From an uncultured Pelagibacteraceae bacterium (GTDB taxonomy: Bacteria > Pseudomonadota > Alphaproteobacteria > Pelagibacterales > Pelagibacteraceae), in assembly GCA_902626185.1 (NCBI GenBank), contig CACOEA010000003.1:1-61681 (forward strand): 61,681 nt of DNA. Reading direction: 5' to 3'. Shown here one piece after another: positions 4,846 to 29,055 of this stretch (positions are counted from its first letter, which is position 1; every line of letters begins with the position of its first letter). The notes below the pieces were generated by a model. The model ran no database searches and was not told the DNA's origin. It saw only the letters and a program-made list of their open reading frames with translations. The translations under genes were made by a program, and so were the position numbers.

Positions 4846-5842
4846 TTAAGTCATCCATTTCTTTTAAAATTTTTTTTGGAATAGATATATCTTTATTCAT
4901 ATTTTTTTTATACAAAAAATTTTTTCTTTCACCTGGATAAAGAATTGAACTAAACCCTTTGGCTTTCGGTAGTTTTTTTATCAATCTAATATTTTTCTTT
5001 ATCTCTTTTATAAAATTTTTGCCTATAAATACCTTGGGATTAATTGTTATAAATAAGTGACCAACATTTTGAGGTCCGGTAAAATCATCGAAGGGGTCTT
5101 TTGTTTTTCCACCGTGACTACTCCCAGTTAGCACTCCACTTAAAATATCAACCATCCAGGCTAAGCCTGATCCTTTAAATCCACCAATTGGCAACTGAGT
5201 TCCCGAAAGTGCTTCTTTTGCATTAGTGGTCATTTTACCATACTTATTTAAGGCGACACCGAAAGGTATTTTTTTTCCAAATTTTTCTGCGTGTCTTATT
5301 TTACCTCTGTTTATCATTGATGTTGATGTATCTAATATAAAAGGAACTTTACCAGTTGGAACACCGAAACAAATAGGATTAGTACCAAATAAAGATTTTT
5401 TAGCACCATGTGGAGCAAGGGCAGGTGGTGCATTAGTAAAACAAAAAACAATTAAATTTTTTTTTACTGCTTGTTCAGCATAAAAGCTCGAAAGTCCATA
5501 ATGACCACTTCTTTTAATTCCAACTAGGCCTATCCCAGTTTTTTTTGCATTTTTAATTGCTTGAGAAATTCCAATATCGGCAGAAACAAAACCAATACTA
5601 TTATCCGCATCAATGTAAGAAATTGATGAATTAATCTTTTTAATCTTTATTTTTGGTTTGGCGTTGATTAATTTTCTGCGAATTCTTTCGCAATACATGT
5701 TGAGTCTGGTTAGACCATGTGATTTAGCCTCAACTAGTTCAGCCTTTATCAAATAATCTGCACAAATTTCTGAATGTTTTTTTGATAGTTTATGCTTTAA
5801 AAAAATTTGTATTATTTTTGACCTTAGAATATTTTTTTTCAC
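4835..5842 (-). CDS. Ldh2/ComC-type malate/L-lactate/sulfolactate dehydrogenase
   Basis: The 335-residue protein is an NAD(P)-dependent 2-hydroxyacid dehydrogenase of the Ldh2 (type 2 malate/lactate) family. Family marks are the helical N-terminus with SHGLTRLNMY, the RSGHYG catalytic-His loop near residue 112, FTNAPPALAPHG, FGTNPICFGVPTG, and QLPIGGFKGSGLAWMVD. Relatives include (R)-sulfolactate dehydrogenase (ComC), ureidoglycolate and delta1-piperideine-2-carboxylate reductases. Given the HpsN-like gene and the taurine locus nearby, sulfolactate to sulfopyruvate is a reasonable candidate reaction, but sequence alone cannot settle the substrate. It overlaps both neighbours on the minus strand, so it is in an operon with the phosphate acyltransferase. 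Confidence 0.85.
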   Translation of the reverse strand: MKKNILRSKIIQIFLKHKLSKKHSEICADYLIKAELVEAKSHGLTRLNMYCERIRRKLINAKPKIKIKKINSSISYIDADNSIGFVSADIGISQAIKNAKKTGIGLVGIKRSGHYGLSSFYAEQAVKKNLIVFCFTNAPPALAPHGAKKSLFGTNPICFGVPTGKVPFILDTSTSMINRGKIRHAEKFGKKIPFGVALNKYGKMTTNAKEALSGTQLPIGGFKGSGLAWMVDILSGVLTGSSHGGKTKDPFDDFTGPQNVGHLFITINPKVFIGKNFIKEIKKNIRLIKKLPKAKGFSSILYPGERKNFLYKKNMNKDISIPKKILKEMDDLNAI

Positions 5843-6273
5843 TTAATTATTTTTTTTCCTTCTTTTTCCCAATAATTAGTTCTTTGCTCAGGGTTTTCGA
5901 CAAGATTTTTACAAACTAAACCATATTTTTTAGCTAAAGCGGAAAGGTCCTTATTAGCTAATTTAACGAAGTCAGTTACTTTATCTTTTGTCATTTGTGC
6001 CATCACTTCCGGATTTAACCCCATAATTTCTCCAAGATCATAATTATATTTTAAGGCAACATCTGCACTTTCTTCTAAACTATCAATTATTTTTTTTTCT
6101 TTTCCAGATTTTTTAAAACTTTCTGCTGCGACTTTGTAAAAACTATAACAATTTACATAATCTTTTTGAATATTTTCCATTACATATTTGGCAATTCTTT
6201 TTTCTTTTACACTCTCATCAGCCAATACTGAGAAGGGCATTGAAGTAATAATTAGTACTAATAGTTTTTTCAT
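5839..6273 (-). CDS. Small secreted protein of unknown function
   Basis: This 144-residue protein begins with a cleavable signal peptide (MKKLLVLIITSMPFSVLA, then DES). The mature part is helical and charged, with two cysteines (VNCYSFYK near residue 43 and GLVCKNL near residue 121) separated by about 78 residues, compatible with one disulfide between helices. No family was recognised. It overlaps the genes on both sides by four bases, so it is part of a minus-strand operon with the racemase upstream and the Ldh2-type dehydrogenase downstream. A general resemblance to 2491-2871 (signal peptide, C-x3-Y-Y/F helix, late Cys) suggests the same lineage-specific family. Confidence 0.7.
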   Translation of the reverse strand: MKKLLVLIITSMPFSVLADESVKEKRIAKYVMENIQKDYVNCYSFYKVAAESFKKSGKEKKIIDSLEESADVALKYNYDLGEIMGLNPEVMAQMTKDKVTDFVKLANKDLSALAKKYGLVCKNLVENPEQRTNYWEKEGKKIIK

Positions 6274-6962
6274 TTATATTTCTTCATTGATGCTTCTGCC
6301 AAAATTAAATTAGGATCCATAAATATTTTTGACAACTTAGCTTTTTTAAAAGATTTATACGCAAAAATAGCTATTGGCAACTCTGTACAGCCCAAAATGA
6401 TTTTTTTGCATCTCTTTTTTAATAAATAATTAACTGCTGGTTTTATTGCTTTTTCAGCTTCTTTAGTTTTTCCCATCTTTACAAATTTTATAGACTTATT
6501 TACGCTTCTCATCTGTAATTTTTTTTGTGGTGATATCAATTTATATTTTTTACTAAAATATTTATTATAAATACCAGTTTTAATAGTTGCCTCAGTAGCT
6601 AAAAGACCTATTTTGGAATTCTTCTTACAATTTTTGGAGGCACTTTCGTAAACAATTTTTGGCATATTTAATATTGGGATTTTAATTATTTTTTTCAAAT
6701 CGTCGTACCAGTAATGAGCGGTATTACATGGTATAGATATAAATTTACATTTGTTTCTTTGTAAAAATTTGCAACCAGTTATTAGTGCTTTTAAAACTTT
6801 TTTGTACTTATCAAGATTTTGTTTTCTATCTGGAATGTTCGACTTATTATAAAGTAAAAAAAGAGGATAGTTCTGATCTGACTTACCTCTGTTTAGTTTA
6901 GCAAGTTTACTACAAAAGTCTAAACCAGCTTGAGTACCCATGCCACCAAGTATACCGATCAT
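6270..6962 (-). CDS. Aspartate/glutamate racemase family protein
   Basis: The 230-residue protein shows the two-cysteine active site of PLP-independent Asp/Glu racemases: PCNTAHYW near residue 80 and LGCTELPIA near residue 193. It opens with IGILGGMGTQAG, the usual N-terminal strand-loop of the family. It likely interconverts L and D forms of an acidic amino acid or a related acid in the cytoplasm. It is the first gene of the minus-strand operon that continues into the secreted protein, and it lies 23 bases downstream of the tauC-like gene, so read-through from the taurine transporter is possible. Confidence 0.85.
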   Translation of the reverse strand: MIGILGGMGTQAGLDFCSKLAKLNRGKSDQNYPLFLLYNKSNIPDRKQNLDKYKKVLKALITGCKFLQRNKCKFISIPCNTAHYWYDDLKKIIKIPILNMPKIVYESASKNCKKNSKIGLLATEATIKTGIYNKYFSKKYKLISPQKKLQMRSVNKSIKFVKMGKTKEAEKAIKPAVNYLLKKRCKKIILGCTELPIAIFAYKSFKKAKLSKIFMDPNLILAEASMKKYK

Positions 6963-6985: not shown

Positions 6986-8893
6986 TTAACCCTTACCTCG
7001 CCAAGGGATAGTTTTGTCAATAATTTTCCTTATTGTAACATCAAAAAGTAAGCCTAGCATTCCCATAATGAAAATAGTTATCCAAATAACTTCATACTGG
7101 AAGTATTTTTTTGCGACATTTTCGACAAAACCTACTCCAGTTGTACCTGCTAAAAATTCTGCAGCAACTAAAGTTCCCCAACACATTCCTGTTGCAACTC
7201 GTATTCCTGTAAGTATTTCCGGTAAGGAATTTGGAAAAATAACATGTCTAAGTATTTGCCATTTAGAAGCCCCAAGAGAATGTGCTGCATGGATTTTCGA
7301 TAATTGAGTTCCCGACGCTCCAGCTCTAGCTGAAATTATCATTATTGATAAAGACACCATAAATAATAAAAATACTTTTCCAAGATTGTCTATTCCAAGA
7401 ACTGAAATAACTAATGGTGCCCATGCTAATGGTGGAACAGGTCTGTACAGTTCAATTAAAGGATCAAAGAAGCCTTTGGCAAATCTATTTAATCCCATAA
7501 ATAATCCTAATGGAACTCCAACTATAATTCCTGCAACTAATCCAAGGAACACTCTCAAAAATGAATCCCATATATGGCCAGTAGGAATTGGAATTTTAAA
7601 TAAGTTAAAATCTCCAGTAACAAAACTTAAAACTTTACTTTTGAAATTTGGCTTAACTTCACCTTGTTCATTATGAACTGGGTACTCTCCAGGCAAAACA
7701 TCAGCAAACCAATCAGGTAGCAAGAAACCAATTATCTTACTTACATCCATCATTTCATACCAAATTAATGGAATTTGTTTGTAACCTATATTTGGGTTTA
7801 ACATTAATGTAAATTTATTGAGTGTATCGGATGGTTTTGGAAGCCATCTACCAGAACCTTGTTCAGAACAACTTGGGCCACTTGAAATGATCGTGCCTGA
7901 TGGAAACAAAAGAAGATCTACCCATCTAAGACTTCCTTGCTCTTTTTTTTGCACATTATCAAAACTGATTATTGATGCCTGCATGTCCTTTAACGTATTA
8001 GGTGGAAATATACTCGCATATTCAATTCTACGTGCAATCTTAAGAATATCTTTTGCAAATGAGGAGGAAATTTCCTCAGATTCGCTTAAATTATTTCTAT
8101 AATCTTTTATTTCTTTTTTTAGGTTTTTTAAGGCGGAGGCATATTGTTCATTATGATTTTTAAGCTCAAAGAATTCATCACTTATTAAATTCAATTCTGT
8201 GGCTGCTGCCTGAAATTTTAAACCTCGCTTTGTTTTTGGAATAAAGGGAATTTCGATTGTATTTTCAATTGAGGTACTTGATGCTTTCCAGGAACCTTCT
8301 TCCTTAGCAGCTTCAATTCTTTCTAATTTTTGTTCAGCGCTCTCGTTGGGATAATCACTTCTTTTAAAGTTCTCGATTAAATTTAAAATTTTTTCATTAA
8401 CTAATTTAATTTGTTCTCTAGTATCGTTATTTAAAAGTTGTTCATTTGTAAGCAATGGTATTGTATTTTTTGTTTGAGAGATAAAATTTAGTAACTTACT
8501 TTTATCTTGATTTTTGATTCCTGATTTTTCTACTTCAAGAATTATTTTATTTAAATTTTCTGTTTCAGTTTCTATTACCGATGTGCTCTTAAGTTGACGC
8601 TCATCTATTGGAAATAGATATTTAAGTGAAAGAAGAGATTCATTTACTTTACCAACTTGGCAAAGTTCATTAGCTGATTTTGGGAAAAAAGACTTAGCTA
8701 TATCCCATGAATAATATAGCCAGACCAATAATAGAAAACTACTTCCAACTATTACCCAATGAACTCCTCCTTTTGACCTCTCAGGATTTCCAAAAACAGC
8801 ATCAACTTTTTCAGTTCTAATTAATTTTCTTCCATATAAGACACAGCCTACTATGGCGAAAAAAAATAAAAATGTTAAAAAACCTGTGATCAT
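6986..8893 (-). CDS. tauC: Taurine-type ABC transporter permease with a large N-terminal extension (TauC-like)
   Basis: The last 196 residues (from about residue 440) are a standard inner-membrane permease of the TauC/SsuC type, with the EAA loop around AAHSLGASKWQILRHVIFPN. Usual TauC proteins are about 275 residues; this one is 635. The added part has two hydrophobic segments (about 1-20 and 45-65), then some 330 mostly polar residues rich in Glu, Lys, Asn and Ser with coiled-coil-like stretches, predicted to face the periplasm. No frameshift or stop interrupts it and codon use is uniform, so it seems a genuine long form. It directly abuts tauB (8893/8894), forming the tauA-tauB-tauC order. 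Confidence 0.85.
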   Translation of the reverse strand: MITGFLTFLFFFAIVGCVLYGRKLIRTEKVDAVFGNPERSKGGVHWVIVGSSFLLLVWLYYSWDIAKSFFPKSANELCQVGKVNESLLSLKYLFPIDERQLKSTSVIETETENLNKIILEVEKSGIKNQDKSKLLNFISQTKNTIPLLTNEQLLNNDTREQIKLVNEKILNLIENFKRSDYPNESAEQKLERIEAAKEEGSWKASSTSIENTIEIPFIPKTKRGLKFQAAATELNLISDEFFELKNHNEQYASALKNLKKEIKDYRNNLSESEEISSSFAKDILKIARRIEYASIFPPNTLKDMQASIISFDNVQKKEQGSLRWVDLLLFPSGTIISSGPSCSEQGSGRWLPKPSDTLNKFTLMLNPNIGYKQIPLIWYEMMDVSKIIGFLLPDWFADVLPGEYPVHNEQGEVKPNFKSKVLSFVTGDFNLFKIPIPTGHIWDSFLRVFLGLVAGIIVGVPLGLFMGLNRFAKGFFDPLIELYRPVPPLAWAPLVISVLGIDNLGKVFLLFMVSLSIMIISARAGASGTQLSKIHAAHSLGASKWQILRHVIFPNSLPEILTGIRVATGMCWGTLVAAEFLAGTTGVGFVENVAKKYFQYEVIWITIFIMGMLGLLFDVTIRKIIDKTIPWRGKG

Positions 8894-9691
8894 TTAGACT
8901 TCTTTTCCCATTATTTCTTCTTCCATGTCCCATATCATTGTGAGAATCTCTTCTCTTTTGGATACGAACTCTTTATTATTTTTGATATCTCTTAAGTTGC
9001 CATTGAGACCCATTGATGCAAAAGGTAATTTATATTCTTTGTGTATTCTCCCTGGTCTTGGCGCCATTACGTAAACTTTTTCTCCAAGTAATAACGCCTC
9101 TTCCACAGAGTGAGTTATAAGAATTATTGTTTTACCAGTTTCTTTCCAAATCTTAAGAACTAAAGATTGCATTTTTTCTCTTGTCAAAGCATCTAAGGCT
9201 CCTAAAGGTTCATCCATTAATATTAATTCTGGATCATTAATCAAACATCTTGCCAAGGCTACCCTTTGTTGCATTCCTCCAGATAATTGATAGGTAGGAG
9301 TATTACCAAAACCTTTTAATCCAACTATATCTAACCATTCATCAACTTTTTTTTGAGTTTGAACAATATCTTCTTCTTTCATTCTCAAACCGAAATTTAC
9401 ATTTTCAGCAACAGTCAACCATTCAAACAAAGCACCTTGTTGGAAAACCATTCCTCTATCAACACCTGGTCCGTTAATTTCTTTATTATTAAGAGTAATT
9501 TTTCCTGAGGTAGGTCTAATAAATCCTGCTGTAATATTTAATAAAGTTGTTTTCCCGCAACCCGAAGGCCCAAGTACAGTAAGCAACTCTCCTTTTTTAA
9601 TTGTAAAATTTAAATCTTTAAGAGCGTGAACTGTTTCTCCCTTAGGAGTTTTGAAAATCATATTTAAATTTTGAGAAATCAGATTGCTCAT
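8894..9691 (-). CDS. tauB: Taurine-type ABC transporter ATP-binding protein
   Basis: This 265-residue ATPase has a Walker A GPSGCGKTT at residues 41-49, a Q-loop (MVFQQGALFEW), an ABC signature LSGGMQQR at 136-143, Walker B LILMDEP at 156-162 and the switch His in ILITHSVEEA. The FEWLTVAENVNFGL stretch is typical of the taurine/sulfonate/nitrate importer ATPases. It sits between the permease gene, which starts one base after its stop, and the binding-protein gene, 80 bases upstream and separated by a terminator-like hairpin. It energises uptake with TauC at the inner membrane. Confidence 0.9.
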   Translation of the reverse strand: MSNLISQNLNMIFKTPKGETVHALKDLNFTIKKGELLTVLGPSGCGKTTLLNITAGFIRPTSGKITLNNKEINGPGVDRGMVFQQGALFEWLTVAENVNFGLRMKEEDIVQTQKKVDEWLDIVGLKGFGNTPTYQLSGGMQQRVALARCLINDPELILMDEPLGALDALTREKMQSLVLKIWKETGKTIILITHSVEEALLLGEKVYVMAPRPGRIHKEYKLPFASMGLNGNLRDIKNNKEFVSKREEILTMIWDMEEEIMGKEV

Positions 9692-19331: not shown

Positions 19332-20234
19332 ATGTTTTTTAAGAATTTATGGCTCAAATTAACAGACTCTAACGAGCTTAGAGCGCAAAAATTTCTCAAA
19401 ATAAGAGAAAAAGCGAAGAGAGAATATGAGACAAAATTTTCAAAAGAAATAGAGGAAATTCACAAAAAAATTAATAACCAGAAAAAATTAAATTTTTTAC
19501 ATTCCGGACATGCTGCTGATATTGTTAATCTTTTACCAGTAATTAAAGAATTGTCTTTAGAACACGAGTGCAACTTATTTATTAGATTAAATAGACCTTT
19601 AAAATTTTACTACAAACATCCAGCTGATGGAGTTTTTATAAATGAAAAAATATTTTCTATGTTAAAACCTCTTTTAGAAAACCAGGATTATTTAAATCAA
19701 GTGGAGATTTATGACAATCAACCTATAGATATAAGATTAGATATGTATAGGGATATGCCAATTAATCAACTATTCGATAACATTACATACGCTACAATTA
19801 CCACAGGTGTTCGACCTAATTTTGATTTACCGTTCTTAAAAGCAGAAGATCATTCTCAACTAAATAATAAGATAATACTTCAAAGAACTTTTAGATATAG
19901 GAATGATTTTATAAATTATGAATTTTTAAATAATAAAAAAGATTTATTTTTTGTAGGCACAAAAGATGAATTTTTAGACATGAAGAAAGAAGTCAAGAAT
20001 TTAAACTTTTATGATTGTAAGGATTTTTTGGATATGGCTAGTATAATAAAATCTTCCAAACTTGTTGTTGCAAATTCGTCAATTGCTTTCCCTATAGCAG
20101 AAGGATTAAATAAACCTAGATTGCTAGAGGCATGTCCATATTTTCCTGCTGCTCAACCACATGGACAAAATGCTTATGGTTTTTATTTTCAACCTCATTT
20201 TGAAAGCTTGTTCAATAAATTGATGAAATTATAA
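19332..20234 (+). CDS. GT-B fold protein, possibly heptosyltransferase-like glycosyltransferase
   Basis: The 300-residue protein has a basic, helical N-terminus and then LNFLHSGHAADIVNLLPVIKEL near residue 55 (the SGHAADI stretch is where heptosyltransferases have GDxxxxxPxL). The C-terminal half has DFLDMASIIKSSKLVVANSS near residues 232-251, matching the GT9 pattern of a stretch that ends in a nucleotide-sugar-binding loop followed by a PIAEGLNKPRL helix. I am confident it is a GT-B-like glycan protein but not of the donor or whether it is active. It starts six bases after the methyltransferase stop. Confidence 0.55.
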   Translation: MFFKNLWLKLTDSNELRAQKFLKIREKAKREYETKFSKEIEEIHKKINNQKKLNFLHSGHAADIVNLLPVIKELSLEHECNLFIRLNRPLKFYYKHPADGVFINEKIFSMLKPLLENQDYLNQVEIYDNQPIDIRLDMYRDMPINQLFDNITYATITTGVRPNFDLPFLKAEDHSQLNNKIILQRTFRYRNDFINYEFLNNKKDLFFVGTKDEFLDMKKEVKNLNFYDCKDFLDMASIIKSSKLVVANSSIAFPIAEGLNKPRLLEACPYFPAAQPHGQNAYGFYFQPHFESLFNKLMKL

Positions 20235-21396: not shown

Positions 21397-22014
21397 ATGG
21401 ATGAATTGCAACCAATAGTTTTGCTAATTGTAAGTGGTTTATTGTTAAGGTTTTCTTTAACATTAACAGGTCAAGCTTGGGCTAAATCTCATGCTCAAAC
21501 AGTTACTTTTATGGTGCTTCCAATCATAACTTATGTCATCACTAAAACTATTTCAGGAAATATTGCACTATCTTTAGGAATGATAGGAGCATTATCTATT
21601 GTAAGATTTAGGCATCCAGTGAAAAGTGCTCTAGAATTAGTCATGTACTTTAATTTAATTACGATAGGAATAGCAACAAGCGTACGAACCAAATGGGCAA
21701 TACAATTAGTTATATGCACTATATTAATAATATTTTTTGTTAAAATTCTGCAAAAGGTACTAAATAAATACGGCAAGTCTTTCTACAACATGTCATTCAA
21801 TGAAGGAAATACGAGCAACACATTAGAAGTGATTTCTATAAAGAAGATTGATTTCATTGAAGAAAGTGAAAATTTAGCAAATTCTTTAAATGACAATGAA
21901 AATAAACAATATACTTATAGATTACATTTCAATAACAAAGAGTCATTAGAAGAATTTAAGAAAAAGTTAGATAAAAATCAAAGTATCCAGAAAGTTAATG
22001 TAGTTTATAACTAA
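21397..22014 (+). CDS. DUF4956 membrane protein
   Basis: The 205-residue protein has four hydrophobic segments in its first 125 residues and the DUF4956 hallmark LGMIGALSIVRFRHPVKSAL near residues 60-79, which carries conserved Arg and His residues at a membrane boundary. The C-terminal 80 residues are a soluble alpha/beta domain (YTYRLHFNNKESLEEFKKKL) resembling an ACT-like or ferredoxin-like fold. DUF4956 proteins are commonly encoded next to VTC-domain and CotH proteins, exactly as here. The function is unknown; a membrane partner of the VTC domain is the simplest guess. The next gene starts six bases after its stop. Confidence 0.88.
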   Translation: MDELQPIVLLIVSGLLLRFSLTLTGQAWAKSHAQTVTFMVLPIITYVITKTISGNIALSLGMIGALSIVRFRHPVKSALELVMYFNLITIGIATSVRTKWAIQLVICTILIIFFVKILQKVLNKYGKSFYNMSFNEGNTSNTLEVISIKKIDFIEESENLANSLNDNENKQYTYRLHFNNKESLEEFKKKLDKNQSIQKVNVVYN

Positions 22015-22019
22015 TTTTT

Positions 22020-24389
22020 ATGAAAAAAATTATATTTTTTTCCTTTTTTTTCATATTATCTATAAATGCTTCAATAGCAGCTGAAAACAAACCTTTATAC
22101 AAATCCACAGGTTGTAGTAATGTAATTTCAGAAAATTATTTTTTAAATGCAGACAAAATTAAAATAAAAAAGATAGAGATTGATATCAATAACTACAAAA
22201 GTTGGACGGTAAATAATATAAAAATTTTAACGACAAGATCAAGGTTTATTCCCAACGAACTTAAAAGAAATTTTAACGGAGATGTAAAAATTACGTATGA
22301 GGATAACACAATTTGTTTTTTAAAAGCTCGAGTCCGTCATAGTGGAGATGCGAAAGATCATATAGCTTTTAAGGGAAATTCAGTTATCCAAAGTCTAGAT
22401 GTTAAACTTATTAATGGAAACATAAGAGGTATAACTAGGTTTAAACTTTTTAAACCAGACGTGAGAGGTAATTTAGACGATGTAATTATACTTACAAAAA
22501 TATTAAGAGAATTAAATTATCTAGCTCCAAGATCAATTAAAGTACAAGCTAGAGTAAATCAAACCGAGTCTGTAATGTTGTTTCAAGAAAAAGCAGCAAA
22601 AGAATTAATAGAATTCAACAACAGGAGAGAGGGGCCTATACTAGAGGGTGACCAAAAATTTTTTTTCAAAGTTGTAGAAGATATTCCAGACAATCAACTG
22701 AGCAATAGGTCTGTTGGGTTACCTCAATTAAGAAATAAAAGTAGCAAAGTTATGTTATCAAAATTAACAAACGCAAACTTTATAAATCGTGGTGAAATAC
22801 ATAAAATGATGTCTCTCGATGCACTTAACAATCTTAATTTAGTTTATCTTTATTGGTCAAATAGATTTCAAGATGAAAAAAATAATTTTTTCTTTTTTGA
22901 CTATGATTTGGATAATGTTTTATTATCATTATTTGATAAAGATAAAACAGCTGAATTAGATGTTTATAATTTGCTTTTACAAGCAACGAATAGCCATCAT
23001 GCCTTAAGCGCCACAAATAGAAAGTTTTATTGGAACTCCATAGAAAAATATTTTGAACCTATTTTATATGATGCTAACACAAATATAAATTTGGATTTTT
23101 CTACTACTACAACAAAATTAGTTCGTTTTCCAATTTCAAATCATTTTATGAATTCTTTTGAAATCTTGAAAATGAAACTTAATAATATTGATTTAAATAA
23201 ATTAAACAACGAAATTAATAATTCTGGGCTTAATTTGTCTCAAGAGGAGTTAAAAAAAAAGATAACAAAAATTATTCAAAATCTAAGCAGTATTAAAAAA
23301 GATTACAACAAATCCTCAGAAGGTGAAATTGTTGAGCATAATAACTTTAAACCTATAGATAACATATTAAATAAATTTTTTAAAAATTTAAACGAGATTG
23401 ATCCAAATGTATATCTAATACAGCATAGTGATGAAAAGTTACTTAAATGTGAAATTTATTTAGAGAATTGTAAATTTTATAATATTTTAGGCAGAGATTT
23501 TGTGGACTTACTCGAAGGTGAACTTAAAATAGATAACGTAAATTATCAGTATATTGGAAAAGATATTGATCTTAATTTTTTAAATTCAAAAAATAAAGAA
23601 AACGTTATAAATTATAAAGATACTAAAATTTTCTATGAAAATGGCATAAGTGTCGATATTGACGAAGCGAATAATTTAATAAAAATTGATCAGCAAAAAA
23701 TTGGATCAAGAGTTTATATCTCTGATGGCAAACTAGAAAATATTTCAATAGTTTTTAATGGAATTAAACCACCTTCAGATGAAAATTCTAACACTTACAT
23801 CCCCCCAAATTACCCTATCAATCAAAGGGGGCTAACTGGATGTATTTCATTTGTAAATATTTATTTTGATTATGTTGATTTAACAGCTAATAACTCTAAT
23901 TGCGAAGATGCGATAAACCTAGTTAATACAGCAGGAAAAATTAATACAATTTCTATTCAAAATTCATTTAGTGACGCTCTTGATGCAGATTTTTCTGAAT
24001 TAAAAATAAATAATTTAAATATTTCTTCAGCAATTAACGATTGTACTGATTTTTCTGCTGGAGAATACGATCTTGTTAATCTTGATCTAAATAATTGTGG
24101 AGATAAAGGGATTTCAATAGGAGAAAAATCTAAGGTAAAAATAAAAAATATAACTGTAAATAAAGCAGATATAGGAGTAGCGACAAAAGATAGTTCAATC
24201 TTATCATTAAAGAATGCCACTTTAGAAAATTTAAGGACATGTGTTTCAGCTTATAATAAAAAACAAGAATTTAATGGAGGATTTGTTAAAATTGAGAATC
24301 TTATTTGCAAAAAATTTACAAAAAAGTTTGAAATTGATAAGATGTCAAAAATTATAATAGATAAGAGTATTTTAACCAGTAAAAAATAA
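22020..24389 (+). CDS. Secreted CotH-like kinase-fold protein with C-terminal beta-helix repeats
   Basis: The 789-residue protein has a signal peptide (to about residue 20, ASIAAE). Residues about 60-420 resemble CotH-family atypical kinases: an RHSGD stretch near 103-107, NIRGITRFKLFKPDVRG, a His-rich HHALSATNRKFYW near 324, and EPILYDANTNIN near 346 where the YD would bind metal. The C-terminal part, from about residue 560, consists of short Asn/Ile/Ser-rich rungs (such as INNLNISSAINDC and VKIKNITVNKADI) typical of a right-handed parallel beta-helix. It should act in the periplasm or on the cell surface, perhaps phosphorylating a glycan or protein. The VTC-domain gene begins directly after its stop. 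Confidence 0.75.
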   Translation: MKKIIFFSFFFILSINASIAAENKPLYKSTGCSNVISENYFLNADKIKIKKIEIDINNYKSWTVNNIKILTTRSRFIPNELKRNFNGDVKITYEDNTICFLKARVRHSGDAKDHIAFKGNSVIQSLDVKLINGNIRGITRFKLFKPDVRGNLDDVIILTKILRELNYLAPRSIKVQARVNQTESVMLFQEKAAKELIEFNNRREGPILEGDQKFFFKVVEDIPDNQLSNRSVGLPQLRNKSSKVMLSKLTNANFINRGEIHKMMSLDALNNLNLVYLYWSNRFQDEKNNFFFFDYDLDNVLLSLFDKDKTAELDVYNLLLQATNSHHALSATNRKFYWNSIEKYFEPILYDANTNINLDFSTTTTKLVRFPISNHFMNSFEILKMKLNNIDLNKLNNEINNSGLNLSQEELKKKITKIIQNLSSIKKDYNKSSEGEIVEHNNFKPIDNILNKFFKNLNEIDPNVYLIQHSDEKLLKCEIYLENCKFYNILGRDFVDLLEGELKIDNVNYQYIGKDIDLNFLNSKNKENVINYKDTKIFYENGISVDIDEANNLIKIDQQKIGSRVYISDGKLENISIVFNGIKPPSDENSNTYIPPNYPINQRGLTGCISFVNIYFDYVDLTANNSNCEDAINLVNTAGKINTISIQNSFSDALDADFSELKINNLNISSAINDCTDFSAGEYDLVNLDLNNCGDKGISIGEKSKVKIKNITVNKADIGVATKDSSILSLKNATLENLRTCVSAYNKKQEFNGGFVKIENLICKKFTKKFEIDKMSKIIIDKSILTSKK

Positions 24390-24986
24390 ATGAGTTTTAG
24401 AATTGAAGAAAAACTATTTGTTAGAAGAGAAAATTTAATTGATTTTAAAAAATTCTTAGAAAAAAAATCTGTAAAACAAATTTATCATCCAAGAATAATT
24501 AAAAGTCTTTATTTTGATAATATTAATTTAGATATGTACACAGACTCAAAAGAAGGTTTGACTCCAAGAAAAAAAATAAGAATCCGAACTTACCCTAAGG
24601 AAGAAGATAAAAAAATCTACTTAGAGGTTAAAAATTCTTCAGTTGAAGGAAGATTCAAAACAAGGGAAATTTTGGATAAAAACGAATTTAACCAAAAAAA
24701 AACTTCAGGCATTTTAGATAATCAATACGGTCTTTGTTTTCCTAAATTATATGTGAGTTACAAAAGAGAATATTCAATAATTAATGATGTGAGAATTTCA
24801 ATAGATAATGAGATAAAGTATCAAGACTATAAAACTAATATAACATTTACAGATGACAACATAATAGTAGAGCTAAAAACTTCAATTAATAAAAATTTAG
24901 ATGAGCTGGTGCATGATTTTCCATTTCAAAGAATCAGGTTTTCAAAATATTGTTTTGCAGTAGAAAAACTATATAATTTTAATTAA
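24390..24986 (+). CDS. VTC polyphosphate-polymerase-domain protein
   Basis: The 198-residue protein is a stand-alone VTC domain, a triphosphate tunnel metalloenzyme related to the catalytic domain of yeast Vtc4. Basic tunnel residues appear in order: R4 and K8 (RIEEKLF), R64 and R66 (KKIRIRTY), K81 after E79 (YLEVKN), R126 (YKREY), K163 after E161 (VELKTS) and K186 (RFSKYCF); E79 and E161 would bind metal. No transmembrane segment is present, so the membrane link may come from the DUF4956 protein. It could make polyphosphate or act on another phosphate polymer. It is the third gene of a tightly packed trio. Confidence 0.85.
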   Translation: MSFRIEEKLFVRRENLIDFKKFLEKKSVKQIYHPRIIKSLYFDNINLDMYTDSKEGLTPRKKIRIRTYPKEEDKKIYLEVKNSSVEGRFKTREILDKNEFNQKKTSGILDNQYGLCFPKLYVSYKREYSIINDVRISIDNEIKYQDYKTNITFTDDNIIVELKTSINKNLDELVHDFPFQRIRFSKYCFAVEKLYNFN

Positions 24987-25037: not shown

Positions 25038-25114
25038 GGCGAGGTAGCTCAGTTGGTTAGAGCACAGGACTCATAAGCCTGGGGTCGGCGGTTCGAATCC
25101 GCCCCTCGCTACCA
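25038..25114 (+). tRNA. tRNA-Met (anticodon CAT, elongator type)
   Basis: A full 77-base cloverleaf including encoded CCA is visible. The acceptor stem GGCGAGG pairs with CCTCGCT (first pair G-T), the D arm is GCTC/GAGC, the anticodon loop CTCATAA is at about 25069-25075 with anticodon CAT, and the T arm is GGCGG TTCGAAT CCGCC. The anticodon stem CAGGA/GCCTG has an A-G mismatch at its loop-closing pair (31-39). The D-loop and overall sequence look like alphaproteobacterial elongator tRNA-Met; tRNA-Ile2 with modified C34 is the alternative. It divides the VTC trio from the next glycosyltransferase. Confidence 0.93.
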
Positions 25115-25125
25115 GAAAAAAATAT

Positions 25126-25947
25126 ATGACTAATCTATCAATGTATTGTTTGACATTGAAACCTGAGCATGAAAAAAAAATATCTGATTTAAAATATATA
25201 CCAGTTGGTTTAGGTAAAGAAAAATTCTCAAAAAATTTTTTAAGTGATAAATCAGGTGAAACTATATCAGAAAAAAATTCATATTACGGAGAGTATACTT
25301 TTCATTATTGGATTTGGAAAAATTACTTAAATAAGATTCAAACAGACTGGGTTGGATTTTGCCAATATAGAAAATTTTTTGTTAAGCAACTTGTCGATGA
25401 GAAAAACTTACTTTACAGCACGTTAAAAGAGGTAACTATAAAAGAGATTGATGAAAATTTTAGTAATTATGACTGCATTTTGGGTAAACAATTTTCAGTA
25501 GAAAATTATAAGTTGATTAAGATAATTAAAAATCACTTCATGAAATTTTTATTAAATCCCTCGATTTTATTATCTAAAAAAAAACGGACTATAAAATTTC
25601 ATTTTGATTTATTTCATGGAGATGGAAATCTAGATTTAGCAATAGATTTACTTGATCAAAAAAATAAACATGATTTTAAAGAATTTGTTTACACCAAAAC
25701 ATCTTTTAATCCACATAATATGTTTATTTGTAAGACTAAATATTTGGCGAAATATTATGAAACTGTATTCCCATGGTTAGAAAAATGTGAGAGCCTTTTT
25801 AAAGGCAAAAAATTAGAAGGTTATGGCATGCAGAGAATTTACGGATTTTTAGCGGAAAGATTTTTATCTTTTTGGTTTACAAAGAATTATAAGGTTAAAG
25901 AATTACCAATTATTGTCAAAGATCTCTCTGATTATAATCCTTTATAA
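25126..25947 (+). CDS. DUF4422 glycosyltransferase-like protein
   Basis: The 273-residue protein resembles DUF4422 capsular/LPS glycosyltransferases: an early GETISEKNSYYGEYTFHYWI segment (family: S-x-x-x-x-x-Y-W-x-W-K-N), then DWVGFCQYRKFF near residue 67 (family: VGLxHYRRYF), and a late FNPHNMFICK and LEGYGMQRIYGFLAERF stretch around 190-250. It lacks a signal peptide. It starts 12 bases after the tRNA and converges with rfbC, overlapping its end by 16 bases. The sugar donor is unknown. Confidence 0.72.
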   Translation: MTNLSMYCLTLKPEHEKKISDLKYIPVGLGKEKFSKNFLSDKSGETISEKNSYYGEYTFHYWIWKNYLNKIQTDWVGFCQYRKFFVKQLVDEKNLLYSTLKEVTIKEIDENFSNYDCILGKQFSVENYKLIKIIKNHFMKFLLNPSILLSKKKRTIKFHFDLFHGDGNLDLAIDLLDQKNKHDFKEFVYTKTSFNPHNMFICKTKYLAKYYETVFPWLEKCESLFKGKKLEGYGMQRIYGFLAERFLSFWFTKNYKVKELPIIVKDLSDYNPL

Positions 25948-26468
25948 TTTTTACAAAAATCTTTAAACGAGCCTAATCTTTTATCTTTTTTAGAAAGTAA
26001 AACTTTTTTATTTGGCCATTTAATTTTAAAATGTTTATCCATAACATTAATTCCGTCTTCATATTTTGGTTTATAATAATTAGTTAGCTTGTAATAAATG
26101 ATATTTTTCTTTTCAAAACTGTAGTAAGCATGTGCAAATCCCTCTGGGATATATAAACTTAAACAATTCTTATCTGACAAAATTATTTTGAAAACTTTAC
26201 CAAAAGTTTTTGATCTTTTTCTCAAATCAATTACACAATCAAGAATTTTTCCCTCAAGAACATTCACATATTTTGCCTGAGGAAACTTAAATTGAAAATG
26301 AAATCCTCTTAATGAATTTATTTTAGAAATAGTACAATACTCAAAAATGAATCTATTTTGTTTAAAAACTTTTTTACTGAAAGTTTCTCTTAGACTACCT
26401 CTTTTATCTATATTATTTTTTTGTTTTATAATTAAAAGGCCCTTAAATTTTGTTTTATATATTTTCAT
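25932..26468 (-). CDS. rfbC: dTDP-4-dehydrorhamnose 3,5-epimerase
   Basis: The 178-residue cupin protein carries the RmlC pattern: DKRGSLRETF near 21-30, the catalytic base H57 in SLRGFHFQ, VLEGKILDCVIDLRKRS with the Asp partner, and YIPEGFAHAYYS near 107-118, then the DGINVMD turn. It epimerises C3 and C5 of the keto sugar made by RfbB. It is the last of four minus-strand genes giving the complete dTDP-L-rhamnose set; it overlaps rfbD by four bases. Confidence 0.92.
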   Translation of the reverse strand: MKIYKTKFKGLLIIKQKNNIDKRGSLRETFSKKVFKQNRFIFEYCTISKINSLRGFHFQFKFPQAKYVNVLEGKILDCVIDLRKRSKTFGKVFKIILSDKNCLSLYIPEGFAHAYYSFEKKNIIYYKLTNYYKPKYEDGINVMDKHFKIKWPNKKVLLSKKDKRLGSFKDFCKNYKGL

Positions 26469-27166
26469 CTTTTTATGATTTTTTTAATTTTACTTAAATT
26501 CATATCCATTCTTTTTGGAAACTCACCCTTTGAGGTTTTTTTCTTAACTTTTTTTTTATTTTTTTTAGCAAATTGATATATAGATTGAGATTTTCCTCCA
26601 ATATTAATTATACCTTTTTTGTCGATTACCTTTAGAAATATTTTTGCTAATTCATCTTGAAACATAAAATTGGACTTTACATTGCTAAATGCAGACTTAT
26701 GAATAAATGGCCTCTCAGTCATATTTGCTCTTATAATTAACGAGTTAGAGTACATCTGAACAGCTGATTCAGCGCCGAGCTTAGACCAGCCATAGTTATT
26801 CCAAGGTAAAACTGGATCTGTTTCTTTATAATTACCTTTTCTGCCAGGATAAAGATAACTTGTGGAAAAAAAAATTAATTTTATTTTTTTTTCATTACAT
26901 ATTTTGACTAAATTACATGTGCCAATAATATTTAAGTCGATACTTTTATTAATTTGCTTTTCATGAATGGACATAGGTCTAGATAAACCTGCTAAATGTA
27001 AAATATAATTAGGTTTAAAATTTTTTACATTTCTATTAATTGATTTTAAAGATAAGATGTTGAGTTGTTTTTTATTTCTAAAAATAAAATTATATTTACT
27101 TTTAATTTTTTTTAATTCTTGGGCAAATCTACCATCACTACCGGTAACAACAATTTTTTTCATCAT
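26465..27166 (-). CDS. rfbD: dTDP-4-dehydrorhamnose reductase-like SDR
   Basis: The 233-residue protein is an SDR of the RmlD/NAD-dependent epimerase class: VVTGSDGRFAQELKK nucleotide-binding start, FFSTSYLYPG near 110, YGWSKLGAES Tyr/Lys pair near 139 and late INIGGKSQSIYQFA. It is shorter than typical RmlD (about 290-300 residues), lacking much of the C-terminal substrate domain. Position between rfbA and rfbC in a four-gene cluster argues that it performs the final NAD(P)H reduction to dTDP-rhamnose; a different sugar reductase making a modified product is possible. The gap to rfbA is six bases. Confidence 0.75.
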   Translation of the reverse strand: MMKKIVVTGSDGRFAQELKKIKSKYNFIFRNKKQLNILSLKSINRNVKNFKPNYILHLAGLSRPMSIHEKQINKSIDLNIIGTCNLVKICNEKKIKLIFFSTSYLYPGRKGNYKETDPVLPWNNYGWSKLGAESAVQMYSNSLIIRANMTERPFIHKSAFSNVKSNFMFQDELAKIFLKVIDKKGIINIGGKSQSIYQFAKKNKKKVKKKTSKGEFPKRMDMNLSKIKKIIKR

Positions 27167-27172
27167 TTTTTA

Positions 27173-28042
27173 CTATCTTAAAATTTTTTTTAAATATTGT
27201 GAATATAGGCAATTACCGTAAAATTTTATTGCATCGACAATTTGTTTTTTATTTATCCAATTATAATTAAAAGCTATCTCCTCTAAACAGGCAATTTTAA
27301 GTCCTTGTCGATTTTCTAAGGCTGAAACAAATGAAGAAGTATTATAAAAGTCACTTATTGAACCAGTGTCTAGCCATGCACCACCTCTTCCTAAAAATTC
27401 AGCTTTAAGCTTATTTTTTTTTCTATATTTGTTCAGCAAATCAATAATCTCAATCTCTTTTCTTTTAGATGGTTTTAAAGACTTACTGTACTCCACGACT
27501 TTATTGTCGAAAAAGTAAAGACCCGTTACTGCCAAATTAGACTTAGATTGTTTTGGCTTTTCTTTTAATTGTAAAACTTTCTTTTTTTTATTTATCACAG
27601 CAACACCATATAATTCTGGAGAATTTACTGGATGCAATAAAACCTTACAACCTGACGATAACTTGATACAGTCTTTAAGTTTTTTAGTTAGACTTTGAGC
27701 GTAAAAAAAATTATCTCCAAGTATTAATGACACATTATCTTTACCAATAAATTTTTCACCTAAAATAAAAGCATCTGGCAAACCTCTTGGATAAGTTTGT
27801 TCTAAATATCTTATTTTGACACCAAATCTACTTCCATCAGATAATACTTTTCTAAACTGATGGAGCTGACCTTTATTAACAATTATTAGGATATCTTTAA
27901 TTCCTGCTAACATCAAAACAGAAAGGGGATAATAAATTAAAGGTTTATCATAAATTGGAAGCAATTGTTTATTAACAGCCTTAGTTAATGGACTCATTCT
28001 TGTTCCATGCCCGCCAGCAAGTATTATTCCTTTTTTAATCAT
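27173..28042 (-). CDS. rfbA: Glucose-1-phosphate thymidylyltransferase
   Basis: The 289-residue nucleotidyltransferase has the signature GIILAGGHGTRMSPLT at residues 5-20, the conserved KQLLPIYDKPLIYYPLS block, ILGDNFFY near 108-115 with the metal Asp, LKEKPKQSKSNLAVTGLYFF and the GRGGAWLDTGS segment. It makes dTDP-glucose from dTTP and glucose-1-phosphate. Its start overlaps rfbB by four bases, giving operon order rfbB-rfbA-rfbD-rfbC. Confidence 0.95.
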   Translation of the reverse strand: MIKKGIILAGGHGTRMSPLTKAVNKQLLPIYDKPLIYYPLSVLMLAGIKDILIIVNKGQLHQFRKVLSDGSRFGVKIRYLEQTYPRGLPDAFILGEKFIGKDNVSLILGDNFFYAQSLTKKLKDCIKLSSGCKVLLHPVNSPELYGVAVINKKKKVLQLKEKPKQSKSNLAVTGLYFFDNKVVEYSKSLKPSKRKEIEIIDLLNKYRKKNKLKAEFLGRGGAWLDTGSISDFYNTSSFVSALENRQGLKIACLEEIAFNYNWINKKQIVDAIKFYGNCLYSQYLKKILR

Positions 28043-29055
28043 CTTTTTAGCCCTAATCTTTTAAAAAATAATTTTTTAGAAAAATTATTGAAAAATTTAT
28101 AATTGCTCTGGTACCAAAGAAAAGTTTCAATCAGTCCTGATTTAAAAGTTTTTAAAGGTTTCCATTTTAGTTTTTTCTTAATCTTGTTACTATTTAGTGC
28201 ATATCTTAAATCATGTCCTGGTCTATCTTTTACAAATTTAATTTTTACATTATTTCCAATTTTAATTTTTTTGTTTCTAACAATGTTTAATAACATTTTG
28301 GTTAAATTAAGATTATTAACATTAATTCCAGTCCCAATATTATAACTTTCTCCCTTTTTTCCTTTTTTCAGAATAGCTAATAACCCTCTACAATGATCTT
28401 CTACAAAAATCCATTCACGAGAATTAACACCTTTTCCGTAGATAGGTAGGGGTCTATTGTTTAATATATTGTAAATGAGTGTTGGAATTAACTTTTCAGG
28501 AAATTGTCCAGGTCCATAATTATTACAGCAATTTGATATGCATGCATCAACATCAAAAGTTCTTACATAGGACATTATCAAATGATCTGAACTTGCTTTA
28601 CTTGCAGAATAAGGTGAGCTAGGGTTATATGGGTCGTTTTCACTTGACCTGCTTTTATCTTTTATGTCACCATACACTTCGTCAGTTGAAATGTGGATCA
28701 ACTTTATTTTTCTACTATACTCTCTTATTGCCTCTAGCAAATTAAATACACCATAAATATTACTGTGAATAAATTGATTTGGTGAGTCTATAGATCGATC
28801 AACATGCGTTTCTGCAGCTAGGTTAAAAATAGCACTCGGTTTATTTTTTTTCAAAATTTTTAAAACTTCTTTTTTGTTATTAATATCAAGTTTATGAAAT
28901 ATGTATTTTTTCTTATTAATATTTTTAAGAATGTAAGAATTTTTAGAATATGTATTTTTATCAATATTTATTACAAAATAATTATTTTTAATTAAAAATT
29001 TAATTAAATTGCTTCCAATAAATCCACTTCCACCTGTAACAATTACTTTTTTCAT
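28039..29055 (-). CDS. rfbB: dTDP-glucose 4,6-dehydratase
   Basis: The 338-residue extended SDR has VTGGSGFIGSNLIKFL at its N-terminus, AAETHVDRSIDSP near residue 80, the catalytic ISTDEVYGD near 122-130, PYSASKASSDHL near 147 and the family block SNCCNNYGPGQFPEKLIP. It converts dTDP-glucose to its 4-keto-6-deoxy form. It leads the minus-strand rhamnose operon; the 87-base gap to the divergent GT2 gene must hold both promoters. The C-terminal end (KKLFFKRLGLKR) is lysine-rich like other genes here. Confidence 0.95.
   Translation of the reverse strand: MKKVIVTGGSGFIGSNLIKFLIKNNYFVINIDKNTYSKNSYILKNINKKKYIFHKLDINNKKEVLKILKKNKPSAIFNLAAETHVDRSIDSPNQFIHSNIYGVFNLLEAIREYSRKIKLIHISTDEVYGDIKDKSRSSENDPYNPSSPYSASKASSDHLIMSYVRTFDVDACISNCCNNYGPGQFPEKLIPTLIYNILNNRPLPIYGKGVNSREWIFVEDHCRGLLAILKKGKKGESYNIGTGINVNNLNLTKMLLNIVRNKKIKIGNNVKIKFVKDRPGHDLRYALNSNKIKKKLKWKPLKTFKSGLIETFLWYQSNYKFFNNFSKKLFFKRLGLKR

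Follow-up and report, generated by a model that had tools for sequence, protein, structure and literature searches.

A conserved DUF4956, CotH-fold/beta-helix and VTC-domain gene trio in a Pelagibacteraceae genome, a possible polyphosphate synthesis and export cassette

Three adjacent genes of an uncultured Pelagibacteraceae bacterium, coding for a DUF4956 membrane protein, a secreted CotH-fold/beta-helix protein and a soluble VTC domain, form a real unit in which, judged from the sequences, a single membrane protein joins the inside and outside parts. This system probably handles pyrophosphate or short polyphosphate on the outer side of the inner membrane. Our best explanation, which we put forward tentatively as a whole chain, is a polyphosphate synthesis-and-export cassette that feeds an extracytoplasmic enzyme. 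Phosphate chemistry beyond the cytoplasm is best supported by an exported or fused pyrophosphatase, which was found in relatives, outside the window (the whole stretch of 61,681 nucleotides that was analysed). The trio itself is already known from Gram-positive Pel loci.

All three open reading frames lie on the forward strand: the DUF4956 gene (205 amino acids) at 21397..22014, the CotH-fold/beta-helix gene (789 amino acids) at 22020..24389 and the VTC gene (198 amino acids) at 24390..24986. The gaps had been given as six and zero bases in an earlier note on this DNA; the second is indeed zero, but the first is five, with the last base of the DUF4956 gene at 22014 and the following ATG at 22020. 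The dN/dS values against the nearest relative (locus L091) were 0.056 for DUF4956, 0.125 for the CotH-fold/beta-helix protein and 0.051 for VTC; against L102 and L215 they were 0.10-0.27 for the trio genes, where computable. Directly 3' of VTC lies a tRNA-Met gene (25038..25114, forward strand), an insertion-site context and no working part, and a tRNA-Met is also found at most 60 bases from the VTC end in L091, L102, L104 and L215.

Seven window neighbours between 17 and 31 kb were scanned (four ORFs at 25932-29055 lay outside the scan), and they matched methyltransferase, GT61, DUF4422, GT2 and epimerase/dehydratase families or nothing. No pel gene was among the seven and, by the same scan, the window trio is not contiguous with pelDEA(DA)FG as a Pel accessory module would be. 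Since the trio occupies many genomic sites, the surface-glycan island proposed as its setting is a local context. A glycan island as the general home of the trio was given up after a family scan of 121 SAR11-region neighbour proteins, hand-picked out of 245 neighbour ORFs: in the 25 commonest of 190 families no glycosyltransferase family had more than six members, and ilv/leu genes stood alongside. The SAR11 neighbours are frequently non-glycan genes. PelG matched 3 of 74 non-SAR11 neighbours, which were hand-picked out of 205 ORFs of at least 250 amino acids.

Among 297 Pelagibacterales genomes VTC was present in 37, DUF4956 in 41 and both in 34, against 5.1 expected by chance. Joint occurrence of the three genes was looked for in related genomes and was found, with a mostly fixed gene order. 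The trio also occurs in loci of several phyla, Prochlorococcus among them, and SAR11 and Prochlorococcus have it in common by transfer. All three families were also matched in Corynebacterium glutamicum, which served as a control genome. Homologue counts were taken after length and score filters. The VTC-DUF4956 pair is carried by one viral contig (L195). The cassette is patchy, with many insertion sites, transfer between phyla and, in genome G044, three different copies; together with the viral pair, this would suit a mobile cassette for surface variation or phage defence that alters the cell surface by its phosphate chemistry. However, PADLOC gave no match at E <= 0.01 for the nine proteins tested, and the genes are conserved in several phyla, often next to ordinary genes. 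We consider this explanation very unlikely.

The VTC domain, of the triphosphate tunnel fold, matched PF09359 with 82 bits (cut-off 23) over residues 4-195. The complete basic phosphate tunnel that the sequence had been said to encode is there: R4, K8, R64, R66, K81, R126, K163 and K186 are all present in the window protein, and a search for their conservation found them kept in 95-96 of 96 homologues across phyla. The family profile matched yeast VTC4 at E 6.2e-19, and by profile the basic tunnel residues align with those of the catalytic VTC4. We take most of these aligned VTC4 residues in their generally accepted roles. For one aligned pair, Arg264/Arg266 of yeast, an essential role in polyphosphate synthesis is described (PMC8749416). 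The bacterial domains carry RxExK where yeast VTC4 has RxTTK, thus a hydrolase-type activity of the bacterial domain is possible. No membrane segment was found in any of 37 VTC proteins; the window protein, with 198 residues and no hydrophobic segment, has neither an SPX domain nor same-chain membrane helices, and was therefore filed as a VTC-domain protein and not as a VTC complex member. In a single-sequence PDB search its sole match was VTC2, a weak one (E 0.61). In the literature examined we found no report on the activity of any bacterial VTC-domain protein or of DUF4956.

The DUF4956 protein matched PF16316 with 40 bits (cut-off 30.6), and all 54 aligned members matched this profile at E <= 1. 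Its AlphaFold2 model (pLDDT 86.6) contains the four long helices already described for it, and adds a half-helix and a C-terminal domain. Residues 136-205 resemble ACT/Lrp/PII-like folds weakly (Foldseek E >= 0.003, Z about 8), the fold matches covering this C-terminal domain alone. The half-helix and a basic loop make up a conserved signature, residues 58-76 (21568..21624, forward strand), in which G64, A65, L66, S67, R70, F71 and R72 are the same in all 111 homologues, of which 67 come from outside SAR11. This signature would lie at the cytosolic face of the membrane. The MgtC profile, PF02308, matched 32 of the 54 members at E <= 1, weakly (best E 0.00013).

The CotH assignment failed when attempted from the single window protein, which matches no Pfam or NCBIfam family at E <= 1; a single-sequence PDB search gave no match either. 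It was reached through homologues that match CotH and are joined to the window protein by iterated profiles, through the family alignment, which matched B. cereus CotH at E 6.8e-16, and through the fold. In the AlphaFold2 model (pLDDT 83, pTM 0.85) residues 47-434 (22158..23321, forward strand) superposed on CotH 5jda with Z 18.2 and rmsd 4.5 over 311 aligned residues. The PF08757 profile had no match in G000 and matched in 18 of the 297 genomes of the order. A Sec-type signal peptide was recognised by inspection at residues 1-21 (22020..22082, forward strand), and residues 3-22 are the sole hydrophobic segment. None of 36 CotH proteins had a membrane segment beyond the N-terminus, and the N-terminal segment was above threshold in 29 of them. 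The membrane segments fit the topology proposed beforehand, in which VTC sits at the inner face, with DUF4956 as its partner in the membrane and CotH outside. At the Thiodiazotropha locus (L137) a secreted protein (8501-9490), encoded between DUF4956 and CotH, was considered as a second tunnel-fold protein, which the profile comparison did not support (probability 0.4%).

In a profile alignment to 5jd9, in which the placing of D228 is our own reading, the catalytic Asp of B. subtilis CotH is replaced by His327 in the window protein and by His in 53 of 57 proteins, while the second active-site Asp (D251 in B. subtilis) is kept as Asp351 in the window and as Asp in 53 of 57. The B. subtilis D228Q enzyme is described as inactive (PMC7821199). 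Since His stands for the catalytic Asp, the domain is called CotH-fold and not CotH kinase, and judged from these residues it may be a dead kinase; the earlier suggestion that CotH uses phosphate chemistry does not hold in the sense of ordinary kinase activity. Six beta-helix-type proteins (L079, L080, L082, L128, L137 and L145) have an Asp two residues further on, which the window protein does not, and some members of the class may hence be ordinary kinases. Of 31 CotH-type proteins encoded at other trio loci, 22 had a readable motif, and an Asp, counted by eye, was present in that stretch in all 22; the other nine had no readable motif.

Alternatively, the domain, with His in the catalytic loop, could be a different kind of nucleotidyl- or phosphotransferase that itself releases pyrophosphate, the fused pyrophosphatase pulling the reaction forward. 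The conserved His and second Asp, the contrasting Asp of the other trio loci and the presence of a pyrophosphatase in the same polypeptide in four genomes are in its favour. Pyrophosphate is the product of nucleotidyl transfer, and the CotH-fold domain may be akin to redirected kinase folds. However, such an enzyme requires a nucleotide outside the inner membrane, VTC is left without a role, and the displaced Asp of the six proteins also speaks against it; we judge it improbable.

Residues from about 525 to 789 (23595..24386, forward strand) form, in the AlphaFold2 model and by fold matches, a right-handed beta-helix of the polysaccharide lyase/epimerase/hydrolase kind. AlgE4, AlgG, alginate lyases, Pel9A, GH28 and phage tailspikes were matched with Z about 17-20, and a PL3 pectate lyase stood at Foldseek rank 3 (E 0.0028). 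The beta-helix had been named before, but its Asp/Lys ladder had been missed. The ladder (23907..24260, forward strand) repeats about every 22 residues and comprises D630, D652/D655/D657, D674/D677, D695-K696, S699, G701, E702, K723-D724 and K747; it is invariant in 48 of 48 beta-helix domains and kept in 55-57 of 57 in a larger set, and the beta-helix holds most of the invariant residues of the whole protein. The window domain matched no Pfam family at E <= 0.01. PF03211 (PL3 pectate lyase) matched 7 of 48 relatives at this threshold, with L093 as the sole one over the cut-off (26.9 against 25 bits). Since the domain profile gave no PDB sequence match below E 0.1 and single queries nothing usable, no lyase family is claimed. 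The CotH-beta-helix protein of L176 carries a carbohydrate-binding domain.

The conservation of the beta-helix, its many glycan-active fold matches and the PL3 match of L093 could mean that it is a working lyase, epimerase or hydrolase on a surface polysaccharide, with CotH as a scaffold and VTC/DUF4956 regulatory or energy-sensing, no polyphosphate being made; the weakly ACT-like domain and weak MgtC kinship of DUF4956 would agree with this. The exported and fused pyrophosphatase and the conserved tunnel residues are, however, left unexplained, and the window domain matches no Pfam family at the threshold given above. The chance of this explanation appears to us small. For our preferred model, polyphosphate export to an extracytoplasmic enzyme, the glycan-active matches count in favour as well, as does the carbohydrate-binding domain of L176.

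An exported-type family I pyrophosphatase was found in 9 of 397 genomes of the family (E <= 1e-10), in all nine at the trio locus. Five are standalone genes beside the trio, located 5' of DUF4956, between CotH and VTC, or 3' of VTC, and four are C-terminal fusions to the CotH-beta-helix protein. The loci are not all independent, L099 and L212 being close relatives, and a chance estimate for all nine lying near VTC, which assumes independence, was therefore set aside. The five standalone proteins have signal-like N-termini, four of them above the hydrophobicity threshold, and the four that were aligned retain the enzyme's characteristic acidic and basic positions, which we take to be catalytic. 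PF00719 was found in 5 of 10 genomes searched, always over the cut-off; the fused domain of L201 matched it at E 1.6e-31, and SAR11 genome G026 (listed as 100% complete) has no other match at E <= 0.001. The tree was built from 53 loci with all three proteins, and L201 was left out because its contig stops before DUF4956; three of the four fusions fall in the eight-row clade of the window. The pyrophosphatase accompanies a minority of cassettes (4 of 36 SAR11 regions first taken), and it was found neither in the window and the examined contigs of its genome (66% complete) nor in the non-SAR11 loci scanned. The 63 solved sequences matched by it include acidocalcisomal pyrophosphatases and ordinary cytosolic ones; acidocalcisomes are described as carrying the VTC complex (PMC7332688). 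Our literature search returned no paper on a link between pyrophosphatase and trio. The fusion in some relatives points to phosphate chemistry beyond the membrane.

The topology and the pyrophosphatase would also serve if polyphosphate itself were the product, deposited by VTC and DUF4956 at the surface or in the periplasm as a phosphate store or coat, bound or anchored by the CotH-beta-helix protein through its Lys cluster and, with metal ions, its Asp ladder, and recovered as phosphate by the pyrophosphatase. Such a store could be connected with the phosphate buffer that was measured in the periplasm of SAR11 and Prochlorococcus (PMC7250820), two groups that both have the cassette, and the loss of the CotH catalytic Asp would fit. 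On the other hand, the cassette genes occur in 37-41 of 297 genomes of the order, while the buffer study (PMC7250820) ascribes it to entire populations and to Synechococcus as well, and treats it as inorganic phosphate built up from external sources, and the Gram-positive trio accompanies a polysaccharide cluster (PMC7112168). We regard this explanation as unlikely.

In the preferred model, the cytosolic VTC domain would convert ATP to polyphosphate, and the half-helix and Arg loop of DUF4956 would receive the chain and lead it through the inner membrane, in the manner of the VTC complex of the yeast vacuole. The secreted protein would then use up the phosphoanhydride bonds on a substrate at the surface, for which a polysaccharide bound by the beta-helix is the likeliest candidate, and in some relatives the pyrophosphate outside would be cleared by the exported family I pyrophosphatase, for which linkage was observed, the location was read from N-terminal sequences and the reaction is presumed. 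To our knowledge, extracytoplasmic CotH-type kinases have no obvious phosphate donor. A bolder joint reading, possible but doubtful, is that DUF4956 is a bacterial polyphosphate channel forming with VTC a two-gene synthase-exporter, so that the periplasm works like an acidocalcisome. It would also have phosphoanhydride energy supplied beyond the inner membrane, in a space without ATP, and used on a surface glycan by a redirected CotH-fold/beta-helix enzyme, the pyrophosphatase making the reaction irreversible and the cassette moving between SAR11 and Prochlorococcus.

In S. intermedius deletion of the DUF4956 or CotH gene alters Pel level and aggregation, which counts in favour of the preferred model. 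Pel production there needs none of the accessory genes, and the mutants with changed aggregation or Pel named in the available text of PMC12345266 do not include the deletion of the VTC gene SIR_1593. Against the model stand the SIR_1593 result and the Pel independence, along with the RxExK motif, His for Asp, the pyrophosphatase in a minority of cassettes and the non-glycan SAR11 neighbours. No described job for the CotH/VTC/DUF4956 trio was found in the literature, though it occurs in several phyla. The restriction of the pyrophosphatase to cassette-bearing loci in the SAR11 genomes searched, with its four fusions, is a concrete clue to the chemistry, and it makes a specific model testable, with polyphosphate as an exported phosphate or energy source.

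The closest known system is the group of CotH, poly-phosphate polymerase and DUF4956 (plus DUF4832) accessory genes of Gram-positive pel clusters (PMC7112168, PMC12345266), where the same three families occur together, DUF4956 has four transmembrane segments and a C-terminal ACT domain, and the CotH protein is secreted. Here, in contrast, CotH is joined to a beta-helix and has lost the catalytic Asp, and an exported pyrophosphatase is added in some relatives. The 2025 paper on these clusters reports, in its available text, that the trio was not found outside Pel (PMC12345266), whereas the loci described here, in several phyla and with the few PelG neighbours given above, are not confined to Pel. 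The DUF4956 family shows a weak profile similarity to MgtC and has a weakly ACT-like C-terminal domain, but bears a distinct signature. From Bacillus CotH kinase (5jda, 5jd9), with which it shares the fold and the second active-site Asp, the CotH-fold domain differs in the His at the Asp228 equivalent and in the attached beta-helix. The latter resembles the polysaccharide enzymes AlgE4, AlgG, PL3, PL9 and GH28 in fold and in charged residues once per rung, but the window domain reaches no family profile. The eukaryotic VTC complex of yeast vacuoles and acidocalcisomes (Vtc4 polymerase plus membrane subunits) has a tunnel domain whose basic residues align with those found here, and an adjoining membrane protein, and acidocalcisomes also have a soluble pyrophosphatase, according to PDB names. 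Unlike in that complex, VTC and membrane parts are separate proteins here, linked to its membrane helices by no test in the case of DUF4956, the SPX domain is missing, RxExK replaces RxTTK, and a CotH partner is present.

The three genes of the cassette lie on the forward strand, DUF4956 at 21397-22014 (profile score above the family cut-off), the secreted CotH-fold/beta-helix protein at 22020-24389 and VTC at 24390-24986 (score far above the cut-off). The middle ORF matched no family in Pfam or NCBIfam at E <= 1. By these coordinates the intergenic gaps are 5 and 0 bases, which corrects the first of the two values reported earlier (six and zero) and leaves the second. The nearest named loci belong to uncultured Pelagibacteraceae, and the dN/dS values against the closest relative, L091, were 0.056 (DUF4956), 0.125 (CotH) and 0.051 (VTC), thus all three genes are under purifying selection.

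The profile search of 297 Pelagibacterales genomes detected VTC in 37 and DUF4956 in 41 of them, and 34 genomes had both, while 5.1 would be expected; the joint occurrence in related genomes, on which the model of the earlier note depended, is thus borne out. Ten genomes had a single gene of the pair, and since in 7 of the 10 this gene lies within 300 bases of the contig's first base, most of them can be put down to broken assemblies. Pfam CotH matches were obtained in 18 of the 297 genomes, each with VTC or DUF4956 present, and in 14 control genomes VTC and DUF4956 matched in the identical set of three. When 36 SAR11 regions were fetched and searched with profiles iterated from the window proteins, all three genes were found in 32, usually in the order DUF4956-CotH-VTC; VTC precedes CotH in L083 and L113, and CotH is on the opposite strand in L105. 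One gene is missing in L081, L113 and L114, where contig ends truncate the locus. The trio is a real unit. A degenerate-looking cassette was also seen (L097, 6634-7486, reverse strand), having a DUF4956 ORF of 110 aa, a VTC ORF of 170 aa without the N-terminal motif and no CotH gene.

The spread of the cassette was followed by searching named genome contigs for DUF4956; the best 80 loci were kept, and one contig from a viral collection was added. The latter (L195, IMGVR_UViG_3300010163_000107) carries a VTC-DUF4956 pair at 5101-6456, the sole confirmed match of the viral scan. The 80 loci, a biased set chosen by similarity to the window and with many short contigs, include SAR11, Prochlorococcus, Firmicutes, Bacteroidota, Campylobacterota, Elusimicrobiota and others. 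DUF4956 was clear in 66 of the 70 non-SAR11 loci; VTC accompanied it in 54 of the 66, always on the same strand and within 400 bases in 50, and a CotH-like protein, as judged by a SAR11-trained profile, in 38 (beta-helix form in 13). Among 74 hand-picked neighbour proteins of the non-SAR11 loci CotH was matched by 36 and PelG by 3. Two of the 74 matched the NAGPA phosphodiester glycosidase (PF09992), which could have a bearing on a glycan-phosphate substrate. In the tree of the 53 loci with all three proteins, a quick tree with SH-aLRT support only, the two Prochlorococcus cassettes nest within a SAR11 clade, and rows from Bacteroidota, Campylobacterota and Elusimicrobiota alternate with those from SAR11, hence transfer has been frequent.

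The surface-glycan island, proposed earlier as the setting of the cassette, does not hold as a general rule in SAR11. In three genomes (L087, L089, L092) the cassette is flanked by ilvC- and leuA-type genes, and it adjoins a tRNA-modification gene in L098 and L112; a sugar-nucleotide neighbourhood is common to the window, L091, L102, L215 and in part L104, and one genome (G044) has three distant copies. Since the neighbours differ between SAR11 genomes, the island of the window is one landing site. The tRNA-Met gene 3' of the window VTC gene (25038-25114) possibly marks an insertion hot spot: of 10 regions scanned, 5 had a tRNA-Met, which lies at most 60 bases from the VTC end in L091, L102, L104 and L215 and roughly 1 kb upstream of the DUF4956 gene in L116.

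Several neighbouring proteins were also noted. The 300-aa island ORF at 19332-20234 had no Pfam match and a weak, chance-level NCBIfam match. In one SAR11 subclass an unannotated protein, some 340 aa long, directly precedes the CotH gene (L079 10013-11041, L080 10546-11595, L081 11174-12022, L082 7322-8344), and lies between DUF4956 and CotH wherever the contig extends far enough; the L081 copy (282 aa) is cut by the contig end. A second CotH-like protein, with an N-terminal hydrophobic segment and without the beta-helix, stands just upstream of DUF4956 in L214 (9182-10792, reverse strand) and L215 (2388-3995). In Thiodiazotropha (L137, 8501-9490) a secreted-looking 329-aa protein is found between DUF4956 and CotH; its likeness by eye to tunnel-fold proteins gained no support from profile comparison.

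The complete basic tunnel claimed for the VTC domain was confirmed, as R4, K8, R64, R66, K81, R126, K163 and K186, along with E6 and E161, are conserved in 95-96 of 96 homologues (52 of them non-SAR11), with a gap in one homologue as the sole exception at R4, E6 and K8. The alignment of the family profile to catalytic yeast VTC4 (E 6.2e-19) covers almost the full length, the bacterial Arg pair falling on the yeast Arg pair described as essential for polyP synthesis (PMC8749416). However, bacterial VTC domains have RxExK in place of the yeast RxTTK, therefore a hydrolase-type activity is also possible. No membrane segment was found in any of the 37 VTC proteins searched for one. In DUF4956, G64-A-L-S and R70-F-R72 are identical in all 111 homologues. 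Its model (pLDDT 86.6) has helices at 4-23, 32-52, 56-68, 78-96 and 98-124, followed by a C-terminal domain with weak ACT/Lrp/PII-like matches. By the positive-inside rule, the signature and this domain would be on the cytosolic side, the same side as VTC. The MgtC profile was weakly matched by 32 of 54 members, consistent with the description of the S. intermedius protein as MgtC/ACT (PMC12345266).

The model of the secreted protein (pLDDT 83) has a CotH fold at residues 47-434 and a beta-helix at 526-789. The B. subtilis CotH kinase is reported to be inactive when its catalytic Asp228 is changed to Gln (PMC7821199). The equivalent in the window protein is His327, and His occupies this position in 53 of 57 beta-helix-type proteins; the Asp251 equivalent is likewise retained in 53 of 57. 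Since an Asp stands two residues further along in L079, L080, L082, L128, L137 and L145, the register of these six is uncertain; the window protein has no Asp between His327 and Asn333. In the CotH-type proteins of other trio loci the motif was readable in 22 of 31, all 22 having an Asp in this stretch. With His in place of the catalytic Asp, the CotH part of the earlier model needs rethinking. Fourteen beta-helix positions do not vary among the 48 domains compared (mean column identity 39%). They are spaced by about 22 residues, one rung, and coincide with the beginning of the modelled strands 630-635, 652-657, 676-679 and 696-701 or directly adjoin it. The fold matches include many glycan-active enzymes; PL3 profile matches were weak, above the cut-off in one relative.

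A family I pyrophosphatase adjoins the trio in 4 of the 36 SAR11 regions, in three different positions relative to its genes. The N-termini of these four are signal-peptide-like (three exceed the hydrophobicity threshold) and the positions typical of the enzyme are conserved. Searched separately at E <= 1e-10, the pyrophosphatase was detected in 5 of the 297 order genomes and in 9 of the 397 family genomes, the same five included and G198 and G430 being near relatives, hence not all independent; in all nine it is located at the trio. It is standalone in five (G026, G177, G198, G202, G430), and G026, listed as 100% complete, had no PF00719 match besides the trio copy. In the other four, natural SAR11 fusions, the CotH-beta-helix protein carries it as a C-terminal domain (L213 4623-7610; L214 5523-8525, reverse strand; L215 4670-7675; L201 629-3334, reverse strand). 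The fused proteins showed no hydrophobic segment beyond the N-terminus, and those with a complete start have, by inspection, a secreted-like N-terminus, therefore the fused pyrophosphatase is expected on the outside. Three of the fusions (L213, L214, L215) fall within the window's eight-row clade, and the downstream genes of L215 match those of the window in size and order; hence the domain was either lost from the window lineage or never acquired there. No paper on a CotH-pyrophosphatase link was found among those listed by a full-text search of open-licence PMC papers, judged by titles and term counts.

The mechanism that we consider most likely builds on gene linkage and conservation and on topology read from the sequence; the polymerase activity, transport, donor and substrate are what we infer. 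VTC would make polyphosphate inside, DUF4956 would pass it through the inner membrane, the CotH-fold/beta-helix protein would transfer or spend phosphate on a surface substrate outside, and pyrophosphate would be split there. The polyphosphate model of the earlier note gains from the pyrophosphatases outside the window, while its glycan-island argument falls and its CotH role has to be revised. Among working systems the acidocalcisome comes closest: its membrane is described as containing VTC (PMC7332688) and, by PDB molecule names, it also has its own soluble pyrophosphatase.

The three families are described as occurring together, with an accessory role, in the pel clusters of Gram-positive bacteria (PMC7112168), and an earlier report on C. 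perfringens places genes for VTC, 'tubulin/FtsZ' and CotH at a single locus (PMC2879425). In S. intermedius, according to PMC12345266, deletion of the DUF4956 gene gave more Pel and of the CotH gene less, with either deletion more than half of the aggregation in artificial sputum medium was lost, and none of the trio genes is needed for Pel production. A change in Pel or aggregation is not reported for the VTC deletion, which speaks against an essential VTC in that species. The authors of this study did not find the arrangement outside Pel; the present loci show that it does exist there. The trio is confirmed as a gene module that is widespread and can be transferred, with a putative biochemical role. 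Here it takes a new form, with CotH joined to a beta-helix, a changed CotH active site and, in some relatives, a pyrophosphatase that is exported or fused.
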